From assembly GCA_017519685.1 (NCBI GenBank), contig JAFWRV010000456.1, positions 1 to 11,565 of the forward strand: DNA of 11,565 nucleotides. Direction: 5' to 3'. The notes under the pieces are model-generated. The model saw only the letters and a program-made list of their open reading frames with translations. It did not search any database and was not told the origin of the DNA. Position numbers and translations under genes: made by a program. Positions 4,641-11,207 of this stretch are shown piece by piece (position 1 is the first letter of the stretch; each line of letters starts with the position of its first letter). The DNA is from Clostridia bacterium. GTDB taxonomy: Bacteria; Bacillota; Clostridia; Oscillospirales; Acutalibacteraceae.

Positions 4641-5249
4641 ATGATAAAAAATATTGTTTTTGATATGGGCGGGGTGCTTATAGAGTTTAACCCGGAAAGA
4701 ATTCTTTATTCTCTGTTTGACAAAGACACCGCCGATATCGCTCTCAGAGAAATTTTCAGGAGCAGACTGTGGTCCGAAAAAGACCGCGGCGTTGTGTTTC
4801 CGGAGGATATTATGCGCATCGCCGGGGATAAATTACCGGCTGAGCATTATGAAAAAATCCGTGAACTGACTTACAATTTCTATCCGTATATGAAGCCGTA
4901 TCCCGAAATGGAAGAACTGGTGAAAAGACTGAGAAAAAACGGATACGGGATTTTTCTTCTCTCAAACGCCGCCGCTGATTTTTATGACAACAGGAAAAAC
5001 ATTCCCGCGCTGTCATATTTTGATGGCTATCTGATTTCCGCGGACTGTCATTTGCTCAAGCCCGAAAAAGAAATCTATTATAAACTTTTTTCAAAATTCA
5101 ACCTCAGAGCCGAAGAATGCTTCTTCACCGACGATGTTCCCGCAAACTGCGAGGGCGCCCGGGAGTGCGGAATGACCGCGTACTGCCACAAAAGCGGCTG
5201 TACGGATGAACTTATCGGCGCGCTGAGGAAAGCCGGAGTTAATATATGA
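4641..5249 (+). CDS. HAD-superfamily phosphatase (subfamily IA, YihX-like)
   Basis: This 202-residue cytoplasmic protein has all four HAD motifs in order. Motif I is VFDMGGVL, with nucleophile D8; motif II is FLLSNA, with S108; motif III is LLKPEK, with K140; motif IV is FFTDDV, with D164 and D165. A helical cap lies between motifs I and II, at about residues 15-85. In motif I the usual second Asp is replaced by Gly, a variant also known in YihX-type sugar-phosphate phosphatases, so activity on a small phosphorylated metabolite is plausible but the substrate cannot be read from sequence. The ATG follows AGGGA (4629-4633) by 7 nt. It is the first gene of the operon, and its TGA overlaps the mfd start by 4 nt, so the two are translationally coupled. 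Confidence 0.88.
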   Translation: MIKNIVFDMGGVLIEFNPERILYSLFDKDTADIALREIFRSRLWSEKDRGVVFPEDIMRIAGDKLPAEHYEKIRELTYNFYPYMKPYPEMEELVKRLRKNGYGIFLLSNAAADFYDNRKNIPALSYFDGYLISADCHLLKPEKEIYYKLFSKFNLRAEECFFTDDVPANCEGARECGMTAYCHKSGCTDELIGALRKAGVNI

Positions 5250-6040
5250 ACTGTTTCACCGAAATCGCAAAAAGTATTCCCGAATTCCGTTCGGTTGTCA
5301 ATGCCATACATAAAAACCGCACGCCTCTGGGAGTCACCGGTCTTGCCTATATTCACAAGGCGCACGTAATCGCGTCGCTTGTATCCGGCTTCAAAAGGTC
5401 CGCGCTTGTAATCGTTCCCGATGAAACGCAGGGATCAAAAATGGTTGCCGACCTTGAAAACTTCGGAATAAAGGCATATCTTTATCCCGCGAGGGATTTT
5501 TCATACAGAATAGAGGAAACCGTTTCAAGAGAATACGAGCATAAGCGTCTTAATGTTCTTGACAGGATGCTGACAGGAAAATTCGACGCTGTGGTTCTTT
5601 CATCCGAAGCCGCGATGCAGCTTACCATACCTCCCGATGTTCTTATGGCAAACTCGCTGAGCATCACGGCGGGAGAGGAATACTCAACGGAAGAACTCAC
5701 CGGGCTTCTGCTCAGAAGCGGATATTCATTCTGCGACCAGATTGACGGCCCCGGGCAGTTTGCCGTCAGAGGCGGCATTCTCGACTTTTTCCCTCCCGAT
5801 TCGTCATATCCCTGCAGGGTGGAGTTATGGGGAGACACGGTTGACTCGGTCTTTTATTTTGACATTGATTCACAGAGAAGAACGGAGCTGCTCGATGAAA
5901 TCAGAATCACTCCCGCAAAGGAGGTCCTGATAACCGACGAACAGCTTATCGCTGTTATTGAGAAGCACATTAAAGAAAAGAGAATCCGCGGCGACGGTTA
6001 TAAAATGCTTTTCGCGGAAATCGAAAAAATAAAGAGCTGA
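5246..6040 (+). CDS. mfd: Mfd N-terminal part (UvrB-like, UvrA-binding module), ends early
   Basis: Mfd recognises RNA polymerase stalled at DNA damage, removes it, and recruits UvrA for nucleotide excision repair. These 264 residues cover the N-terminal UvrB-homology region (domains D1a-D2-D1b), where UvrA binds. The hallmark VRGGILDFFP is at 174-183 and RVELWGD at 191-197, matching the UvrB/Mfd pattern. The fragment stops before the end of D1b, at about three quarters of the module's usual 350 residues. The ATG at 5246 overlaps the HAD stop and is preceded by GGAG at 5235-5238, 7 nt upstream. If it is made as a separate polypeptide it has no motor or RNA polymerase-binding domain. Confidence 0.85.
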   Translation: MNCFTEIAKSIPEFRSVVNAIHKNRTPLGVTGLAYIHKAHVIASLVSGFKRSALVIVPDETQGSKMVADLENFGIKAYLYPARDFSYRIEETVSREYEHKRLNVLDRMLTGKFDAVVLSSEAAMQLTIPPDVLMANSLSITAGEEYSTEELTGLLLRSGYSFCDQIDGPGQFAVRGGILDFFPPDSSYPCRVELWGDTVDSVFYFDIDSQRRTELLDEIRITPAKEVLITDEQLIAVIEKHIKEKRIRGDGYKMLFAEIEKIKS

Positions 6041-6217
6041 ATAAAAATAAACTGCGCCGATAAATATCTGCCGCTTATTTATCCCGGCTCGGGCGGAATA
6101 TTTGATTACGCGGAAAACTGTCTGCTTTTTGTCTGCGAAAGTTTTTCCGTCAAAGACAGGTTCAACGCCGCCATCCAGCTTCAGCATGAAACGGTCAAAT
6201 CGCTTTTCAAGGAAAAG

Positions 6218-8701
6218 GTGCTCTGCCGCGGACTTGAGCGTTACGGTCTTGAGCAGTTTGAGTTATATAAGAACTACACCGATATGGGTGTCGTTTATCT
6301 TGACAGTCTGCCGAGAGGAAGCTTTGACACGGGTGTCAAGGAGCTTATCAGTTTTTCCGCAAAGCAGCTTGTTCCCTGGAACGGTCTGCTGACCGCCCTG
6401 ACCGAGGATATAAACGGCAGGCAGGCGCATAAGGAGCACACCTGCATTGTTATGGCGGGCACGGAAAAAGCGGCGCAGACGCTTGCGAGTGATCTCAACG
6501 CGGAAGGGATTCCCTGTAATTTTTATCCGTCGCTTCCCGAGAAATTCCCGGTAGGAAAAACCTCGGTTGTTCCGGGCGGCTTATCATACGGAATGGAATA
6601 TCCGGGCGCGGCGTTCACGGTATTCACCTACCGTTCACAGACTGCCGTAAAGCCGAAAAAAACAAGAAGGACGAGCAAAAACGCCTTCAACAGTCTTACC
6701 GAGCTTCACAGGGGCGAGTATGTTGTTCACTCGGCTCACGGCATCGGAATTTTTGACGGCATCAGCGGTCTTGAAACGCAGGGCACAATCAAGGACTATA
6801 TCAAAATCCGTTATGATAAGGGAGATATCCTCTATGTCCCCGTAACCCAGCTTGACCAGGTTTCCAAATATATCGGCGCGGGTGAGGACAGACCCGTAAA
6901 ACTCAATAAATTGGGCGGCGCCGACTGGCAGAAGACACGCAGCAAGGTTAAGGCGTCCGTCAAAAACATGGCGAAGGAGCTCATTGAGCTTTATTCAAAG
7001 CGTCTGAAGGTTCAGGGACATTCTTTTTCACCCGATATTGATATGCAGAATGACTTTGAAAGCCGTTTTGAATACGCGGAGACGGATGACCAGCTTCGCT
7101 GTATCAGGGAAATAAAGCGCGATATGGAAAAGCCGTATCCGATGGACAGACTCCTGTGCGGCGATGTCGGCTTCGGCAAAACGGAGGTTGCTCTGCGCGC
7201 CGTTTTCAAATGCGTTGCCGACGGTATGCAGGCGGCGATACTTGTTCCGACCACGATACTCGCGCTCCAGCATTACCAGACCATTCTCAAAAGATTTGAC
7301 GGCTTCCCGATTGAAGCGAGAATGCTTTCGAGATTCTGCTCAAAGAAGGATATAGATTCAACCGTTCTCGGCCTGCGCAGAGGCAGCGTCGATATAGTTG
7401 TCGGCACTCACCGCCTCATTTCCAAGGATATTCAGTTCAGCAAGCTCGGCCTTATCATAGTTGACGAGGAACAGCGTTTCGGTGTAGCGCAGAAGGAAAA
7501 GCTCAAGTCGCTTTATCCGAGCGTAGATGTGCTGACTCTTACCGCCACGCCTATTCCGAGAACGCTGAATATGGCGATGACAGGCATCCGCGATATGTCG
7601 GTGCTTGAAGAAGCGCCGCAGGACAGACACCCTGTTCAGACCTATGTTATCGAGCACGATATGGATGTTCTCGCGCAGGCGATGGAGCAGGAGCTCCGCA
7701 GGGGAGGACAGGTTTACTATCTTTACAATAAAATAGAAACAGTTGAACGCAAGGCGGCTGAAATCAAAGAACTGCTTCCCGACGCGACGGTTGCCGTCGG
7801 CCACGGCAGGATGAATGAGGACGAGCTCAGCGAGGTCTGGCGCAAACTGCTTGACGGCGAGATAGATATACTTGTCTGCACGACGATAATCGAAACGGGT
7901 GTCGATGTTCCCAACGTCAACACTCTGATAATAGAAAACGCCGACAGGATGGGACTTGCCCAGCTTCACCAGATAAGAGGCAGGGTGGGGCGCTCATCGA
8001 GAAGGGCAAGCGCGTATTTCACGTTCACGAGAGGAAAACAGCTTTCGGAAATCGCGGAAAAACGTCTTGAGGCAATCCGTGAATTCACGGAATTCGGTTC
8101 CGGTTTCCATATTGCCATGAGAGACCTTGAGCTTCGCGGAGCGGGCAATATTCTCGGAGCGAATCAGCACGGTCAGATGGAGTCCGTCGGTTATGATATG
8201 TATATTAAACTGCTTGAGCAGGCGGTCAGCGAGGAGAAGGGAGAAAAACCCTCGGAGCCCGAGAAAGACTGCCTGATAGACCTTCCGATAGACGCGCACA
8301 TTCCCGAAAAATATATCGGAAGTCTGCCGCAGCGGCTTCAGATTTACAGAAGAATTGCCGATATACGCACCAAGGAGGACGCCCTTGACGTTACGGATGA
8401 GCTTATCGACCGTTTCGGAGAACCGCCTGAAAGCGTACTCGGACTTATCAGGATTTCAACCATCAGAAGCAAGGCGGCAAATGCCGATATCTATGAGATT
8501 TCAATTGAGGGAGACAGAATCATATTCAAAACCGATAATCTCGATATGGATATGATGTACCGTATCGCTCCGCATTACAGCGGAAGATTCAAAGTCAGTT
8601 CCGGAAACGGAAAACCTCATTTTGATGTAACGGTGATGAAAGACGATAATAAACTTTCTCTTATTGAAAAAGTGCTTGAATACGCCTCAAACAACGGATA
8701 A
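6218..8701 (+). CDS. mfd: Mfd C-terminal part (RNA polymerase-binding and DNA translocase)
   Basis: This part carries the working core of Mfd. In full-frame numbering (codon 1 at 5246), the CarD-like RNA polymerase interaction domain lies at about 484-552. The superfamily 2 translocase then has Walker A GDVGFGKT at 639-646, a DEEQ box at 740-743, TATPIPRTL at 766-774 and QIRGRVGR at 909-916. A RecG-like TRG segment follows (GAGNILGANQHGQ region), and the D7 domain occupies about 1008-1151. The frame is open from 6041, but the first usual start codon after the TGA is GTG at 6218, with AAGGA at 6209-6213 only 4 nt away, so independent initiation would be weak. Starting there would lose the end of D1b and keep D3 to D7. 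Its TAA is directly followed by the ribosome site of the next gene. Confidence 0.85.
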   Translation: MLCRGLERYGLEQFELYKNYTDMGVVYLDSLPRGSFDTGVKELISFSAKQLVPWNGLLTALTEDINGRQAHKEHTCIVMAGTEKAAQTLASDLNAEGIPCNFYPSLPEKFPVGKTSVVPGGLSYGMEYPGAAFTVFTYRSQTAVKPKKTRRTSKNAFNSLTELHRGEYVVHSAHGIGIFDGISGLETQGTIKDYIKIRYDKGDILYVPVTQLDQVSKYIGAGEDRPVKLNKLGGADWQKTRSKVKASVKNMAKELIELYSKRLKVQGHSFSPDIDMQNDFESRFEYAETDDQLRCIREIKRDMEKPYPMDRLLCGDVGFGKTEVALRAVFKCVADGMQAAILVPTTILALQHYQTILKRFDGFPIEARMLSRFCSKKDIDSTVLGLRRGSVDIVVGTHRLISKDIQFSKLGLIIVDEEQRFGVAQKEKLKSLYPSVDVLTLTATPIPRTLNMAMTGIRDMSVLEEAPQDRHPVQTYVIEHDMDVLAQAMEQELRRGGQVYYLYNKIETVERKAAEIKELLPDATVAVGHGRMNEDELSEVWRKLLDGEIDILVCTTIIETGVDVPNVNTLIIENADRMGLAQLHQIRGRVGRSSRRASAYFTFTRGKQLSEIAEKRLEAIREFTEFGSGFHIAMRDLELRGAGNILGANQHGQMESVGYDMYIKLLEQAVSEEKGEKPSEPEKDCLIDLPIDAHIPEKYIGSLPQRLQIYRRIADIRTKEDALDVTDELIDRFGEPPESVLGLIRISTIRSKAANADIYEISIEGDRIIFKTDNLDMDMMYRIAPHYSGRFKVSSGNGKPHFDVTVMKDDNKLSLIEKVLEYASNNG

Positions 8702-10322: not shown

Positions 10323-11207
10323 ATGAGCGGATTAACGAACAGAAGCAATAAAAAAACCGACGGTCACGGCAGACTTGCCGCTGTGGCCGGGATAATTGCT
10401 GCCGCCGTTATCGTAACAATACTCGTGCTTGTTTTCAAAAACAGCGTATATTATTCGCTGGCTCTCGGAAAGGTCCGAAACAATGAGTTTACCTCCTCGC
10501 TGTCGCTTCTCGAAAGGACGGACAGCGAAAAAGCGGAGGTAATGAAGGATTATGTCAGTCTCCGCCTTGATATCAACCGGAATTATTCGGTGATGATTTC
10601 ATCGTTTGATATTGAGGTTATAAATGACTGGAACGGAAAAGTTGACGCTCTGACGGAAAAAATCGAACTGTTTCCCACCGATATAGGAAAGGACATTTCC
10701 GCTCTGAGCGAAAAGCTCAAAAACATTGTTTCGATTAATGAGAAATATCAGCTGATACGCTCCGATGTGTTTTCCGCACTGGATGTTTTCAATGAGCTTA
10801 ACCGCCTTTACGCGGTTGACGCTTCCGGAAACAGGACAACATTCACGGTTGCCGAGGAAAACGCGAAGGCGGCGGAGTGGGAAAACCGGGTGAACATACT
10901 GTCGGATTTCAGCTCGCAGATACCGGGAGGCGATACGATATATCTTCTCAGTTATCTGATAAGCGAAACGAGAAGCGAGTGCGCCGATATCCGCGAGGCA
11001 ATGCAGACCGTTCTTTCACACGGCTACACCGAAACCGATTCCGTAAGAATCAGCGGCAGCGGTCAGAAACAATTCCCCGATATCACCAATTCATCGGGAA
11101 CGGCAGTAAATGTCACCCGTAAAGAAGAATATGAGGAATATATGTATGCCGGAATCTGCCGTGCTCTTGTTGAAACGCTTGCCGGATACTATACCGGAAT
11201 AGAATAA
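10323..11207 (+). CDS. Single-pass membrane-anchored protein of unknown function
   Basis: I do not recognise a family for this 294-residue protein. It begins with a basic, polar tail (residues 1-17) and one strongly hydrophobic helix at about 18-38, with positive residues mostly on the N-terminal side. By the positive-inside rule, the remaining 250 residues should lie outside the membrane. That part is acidic and helix-rich, and starts with a segment around 42-66 that resembles the first half of a TPR-like helical pair; coiled-coil character is possible at about 105-160. No catalytic motif, cysteine pair, lipobox or sortase signal is apparent. The ATG has AAGGAAAGG at 10308-10316, overlapping the stop of the serine hydrolase gene, and the gene ends just before the operon terminator. 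It may be an accessory or scaffold protein; that is inference. Confidence 0.8.
   Translation: MSGLTNRSNKKTDGHGRLAAVAGIIAAAVIVTILVLVFKNSVYYSLALGKVRNNEFTSSLSLLERTDSEKAEVMKDYVSLRLDINRNYSVMISSFDIEVINDWNGKVDALTEKIELFPTDIGKDISALSEKLKNIVSINEKYQLIRSDVFSALDVFNELNRLYAVDASGNRTTFTVAEENAKAAEWENRVNILSDFSSQIPGGDTIYLLSYLISETRSECADIREAMQTVLSHGYTETDSVRISGSGQKQFPDITNSSGTAVNVTRKEEYEEYMYAGICRALVETLAGYYTGIE

Follow-up and report, generated by a model that had tools for sequence, protein, structure and literature searches.

The window examined here, the whole of an 11,565-base contig (C2) of a draft bacterial genome, carries an mfd gene, encoding the transcription-repair coupling factor, whose reading frame is interrupted by one TGA at codon 265. 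The question raised by this locus is whether the interrupted frame represents a divided or recoded Mfd, a nonsense mutation confined to one strain, or a fault in the assembled sequence. The genome from which the window derives comprises 493 contigs (84.79% complete, 3.44% contaminated), and its relatives suggest that the source is an uncultured species of gut Clostridia. Specifically, among named relatives the closest by Mfd sequence is a Clostridia MAG obtained from horse faeces (84% identity, in a search that may omit the window's own genome), and most titles among the 80 Mfd loci kept refer to uncultured Clostridia, Clostridiales or Oscillospiraceae MAGs, many of them from herbivore guts.

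Analysis of the frame itself (Table 1) bears out what a sequence-only reading of this DNA had described: the TGA is the sole internal stop, and Mfd sequence resumes beyond it without a change of frame, with Mfd domains on both sides and in order. The ATG start overlaps the end of a HAD gene, the portion preceding the TGA covers part of the UvrB-homology module and matches PF17757 (UvrB_inter) with 76 bits, and the 886 open codons that follow encode the CarD_TRCF_RID, DEAD, Helicase_C and TRCF domains of Pfam and score 914.6 bits against TIGR00580, for which the cut-off is 800. This domain order is that of known Mfd proteins (TIGR00580 and the solved structures from Mycobacterium smegmatis, 6ac6, and Escherichia coli, 2eyq), and the length is about that of relatives; the difference lies in the one in-frame TGA, which prevents the printed sequence from encoding a single continuous chain. 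The first ATG, GTG or TTG past the TGA is the GTG at codon 325. Seven further genes of the window, the frame truncated at its left edge not among them, were examined and have no internal stop. The window also encodes a 294-residue protein (10323-11207) that has no Pfam match.

Table 1. Features of the interrupted mfd frame and of the two comparable in-frame stops elsewhere in the draft genome.
Feature	Position	Strand	Basis or content
mfd frame (transcription-repair coupling factor)	5246..8701	+	1151 codons plus TAA, single internal stop
In-frame TGA, codon 265	6038..6040	+	Frame translation
264-residue piece ahead of the stop, part of the UvrB-homology module	5246..6037	+	PF17757 at residues 138-226
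Codon 256, residue in 0/120 rows of relatives, 9 codons ahead of the stop	6011..6013	+	
59 conserved codons, from the stop to the first ATG/GTG/TTG	6041..6217	+	Frame and pN/pS
827-residue frame from GTG 6218	6218..8701	+	RNA-polymerase-interaction, motor and TRCF domains
GAPDH in-frame TGA	L148:2981-2983 (G000:C21)		Gp_dh_C positions 1-76 before, 79-158 after
GH92 in-frame TAG	L284:10869-10871 (G000:C103)	minus	Catalytic-domain profile positions 1-276 before, 281-463 after

Recurrence of the same TGA in related genomes, a test named beforehand, was sought by using the read-through mfd frame as a query against 45 genomes of the genus, 44 of them besides the source genome. A match covering codon 265 with at least 57% identity was obtained in 41 of the 44, and a stop at that codon in none of the 41. 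In one further genome (G041) the match starts only at codon 272, at the edge of its contig, while two others (G002 and G009) match best with the helicase part alone, at 37-39% identity, a match that was taken for RecG. One of these two, G002, is listed as 96% complete and yet has no mfd match, its helicase-part match standing at 37% identity. Likewise, once tblastn rows with less than 45% identity (60% for GAPDH) or fewer than 150 bits (100 for GAPDH) had been excluded, codon 265 proved to be a sense codon in all 120 aligned rows (105 distinct, the two collections overlapping), with the same residue present in 108. These alignments indicate that position 265 is strongly conserved and that the TGA is not a trait of the lineage. 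The lack of the TGA in the relatives argues against a split or recoded gene, which in conserved form would be expected to show the same stop in independent relatives.

Additional evidence is provided by an intact copy of the gene. P0122, a protein of 1151 residues belonging to a cluster of 5 sequences in the protein collection, is 99% identical to the window mfd across its full length and forms the single continuous chain that the printed sequence does not; it aligns to the solved Mfd 6ac6 over residues 5-1086. Because the 111,259-base contig on which it is encoded is approximately 10 times longer than that of the window, P0122 presumably comes from another assembly. The two sequences differ at 6 of 1151 positions, the stop included, and codons 266 to 435 contain no amino-acid difference. 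The window residue is shared with relatives at four of these six positions, and the window state at codon 256 and the stop at codon 265 are each found in 0 of 120 rows. The closeness of these two codons is weakly consistent with a local stretch of bad sequence, the chance of such closeness being about 0.08. P0122 itself has a residue at position 436 that none of 123 rows contains, so that a residue unseen in relatives, taken alone, proves little.

The remainder of the draft genome was also searched for interrupted genes. Of 121 contigs (window included), the 76 that were readable, amounting to 560,814 bases once contigs returned as N had been left out, were scanned for stops flanked on either side by same-frame open stretches whose codon use is coding-like, a total of 522,849 coding-like bases. 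Twelve of 1075 same-frame pairs were flagged, the mfd junction among them, and at three of the twelve a single Pfam family or gene lies on both sides of the stop: mfd, GAPDH and GH92. The others consist of two junctions at which adjacent genes belong to different families (L222:2162 and L171:3283), five with no Pfam match on either side (L240, L222:8756, L135, L167 and L217), one matched on its first side alone (L136), and one antisense to mfd within the window. Four further same-frame pairs were inspected, three of which have different families on the two sides (L172, L183 and L140) and one of which has none (L152). As the scan is blind to frameshifts and to short pieces, the three stops represent a lower bound. 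With 4.17% of random substitutions yielding a stop, 3 stops in 522,849 bases correspond to about 72 wrong or changed bases, or 1.4e-4 per base.

The interruption of GAPDH bears directly on how these stops are to be read. GAPDH was matched in 41 of the 45 genus genomes and has an internal stop in the source genome alone, where the stop-bearing copy is the one match, though the portion of the genome that is missing could contain another GAPDH. The interrupted position holds one invariant residue in 29 relatives, and this residue differs from the usual one at mfd codon 265. Among the 120 GAPDH sequences listed there is no near-identical copy from the same species, the rows of longest cover not exceeding 95-97% overall (95% over 98% for the best listed; 97% for the best genus relative). 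A third gene, polA, was matched in 42 of 45 genomes and has an internal stop in none. The stops among the mfd, GAPDH and polA matches listed for the other 44 genomes are a TAG at 1147 of the G036 mfd, which is its natural end, and another TAG within a fragment of mfd in G014; approximately 1.6 stops would be expected in those matches at the rate of the source genome, a comparison that neither helps nor hurts the reading of the stops as errors. In another member of the genus, GAPDH is broken up on a single contig into three matches, each in a different frame (G001:C27:2685-3678), a pattern that looks like the result of frameshifts.

Single stops in three unrelated genes, of two kinds and including one in the genome's sole GAPDH match, point either to substitution errors in the draft consensus or to private nonsense alleles. 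We consider the former the probable explanation for mfd: the TGA would stem from one incorrect base in the low-contiguity draft consensus and the mfd of the species would be intact, a reading that draws on the absence of the stop from relatives, the existence of a near-identical intact copy, and the occurrence of other isolated stops in the same draft. We thus infer that the bases rather than the cells are at fault, in which case the organism would make an ordinary full-length Mfd.

Less likely, yet the most credible of the alternatives, is a true, recent nonsense allele private to one strain, in which case the cells would make a 264-residue piece and have hardly any functional Mfd, or none. 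Consistent with such an allele, the stop is clean and in frame, the gene has neither a second stop nor a change of frame, and the intact, near-identical allele shows that strains vary at mfd; moreover, Mfd is dispensable in other bacteria, so that a nonsense allele could live. One mfd allele, however, leaves unexplained the like stops in the only GAPDH match and in GH92 of the same draft, and it is difficult to believe that living cells would carry a stop in the only match to GAPDH, an enzyme central to glycolysis. According to a survey of in-frame stops in prokaryotic genes, which counted only stops common to at least two independent genomes so as to limit sequencing error, such stops frequently represent transient polymorphisms in bacteria (PMC7918605). 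The mfd stop resembles the surveyed stops in being clean, within a conserved frame and flanked by intact sequence, but differs in coming from a single genome, no second one having been found among the genomes searched. Of the four options offered without preference by the sequence-only reading (nonsense mutation, error, readthrough and a split protein), error and private nonsense retain support, while a split Mfd and recoding find none in the 41 genomes, the 120 rows or the intact P0122. The mfd stop most probably reflects an erroneous base or a private mutation that arose by chance, and not a novel type of divided protein. The case counsels caution: where a draft genome shows a single in-frame stop, its remaining sequence should be examined before a split or recoded gene is invoked.

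It is improbable that the UGA is read through or decoded such that full-length Mfd is made from the printed sequence. UGA is leaky, at about 6% in a Bacillus subtilis reporter, as cited in PMC7918605, and TGA accounts for two of the three stops found as compared with a share of 23% expected from random substitution. Against this, the third stop is TAG, and the differing residues of relatives at the mfd and GAPDH stops mean that one reassignment would not fit both. TGA is, furthermore, in regular use as a terminator, as had been argued from the HAD, rimI and hisE genes of the window, all three of which end in it: among 419 closed frames of at least 150 codons on the 76 contigs, 175 end in TGA, 228 in TAA and 16 in TAG, and a genome-wide change of code is accordingly unlikely. 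Neither component of selenocysteine insertion was recovered, although a miss is possible in a genome of this completeness: a profile search for SelB returned 8 matches, none over the cut-off, and four tRNA-Sec-like matches, one just at the gathering score (47.0 bits) and three weaker, are read by ARAGORN as ordinary tRNAs for Gly, Ser, Leu and Ser. The RNA downstream of the TGA shows no unusual fold (z -0.92), 34 of 200 shuffled sequences folding equally well. We regard it as very improbable that the stops are real and that the strain tolerates scattered ones in Mfd, GAPDH and GH92 through leaky termination, owing to a release-factor change or a suppressor tRNA; if true, such leakiness would matter for gene calling and for the survival of nonsense changes in essential genes.

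Similarly slight credence is given to a split Mfd, composed of a UvrA-binding piece and a separate, deregulated motor begun at GTG 6218. An AAGGA motif lies four bases upstream of this GTG, and the piece begun there would resemble E. coli Mfd deleted for the UvrB-homology module, for which a deregulated ATPase and translocase and continued displacement of RNA polymerase are described (PMC3025350). The E. coli protein is a laboratory construct, while its counterpart in the window is predicted from sequence; the earlier proposal that Mfd without its N-terminal module is deregulated and no longer coupled to UvrA agrees with what is established for E. coli (PMC3025350), and would apply here only if the stop is real and the second piece is made. 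Several observations stand against a split, beginning with the absence of the stop from every relative examined and of any amino-acid difference from P0122 across codons 266 to 435. In addition, the 59 codons that would go untranslated are about as conserved as their flanks, which argues against an old split: comparison of the window with four relatives gave pN/pS values of 0.198, 0.258, 0.175 and 0.206 for these codons, as against 0.207 to 0.263 for the stretch upstream of the stop and 0.132 to 0.201 for that downstream of the GTG, values that look back to species divergence and in which a very recent split would leave no trace. For three pairs of intact relatives, the ranges over the same three stretches are 0.133 to 0.218, 0.190 to 0.257 and 0.169 to 0.196. 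The TGA also falls, by what we take to be the domain limits of Mfd, inside domain 1b and not between modules.

The protein collection and the literature were consulted for divided forms of Mfd. N-terminal Mfd pieces number 154 in the collection, and the 120 listed are fragment-like: 9 end at codons 255-275 and the rest are spread from about 160 to 520, with none more than 67% identical to the 264-residue piece of the window. Among the papers retrieved on Mfd with nonsense mutation or readthrough, none mentions a split Mfd in its title or the opening of its abstract. A split Mfd, a changed code, selenocysteine and an RNA structure linked to the stop were accordingly set aside on the grounds of the relatives, the terminators, SelB and the tRNAs, the fold and pN/pS. 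One 370-residue N-terminal Mfd protein in the collection (P0017), at about 43% identity, stands for 177 sequences and 19 contigs; its alignment to Mfd ends at residue 347 of 370, and it is possibly the product of a recurrent frameshifted mfd in one species.
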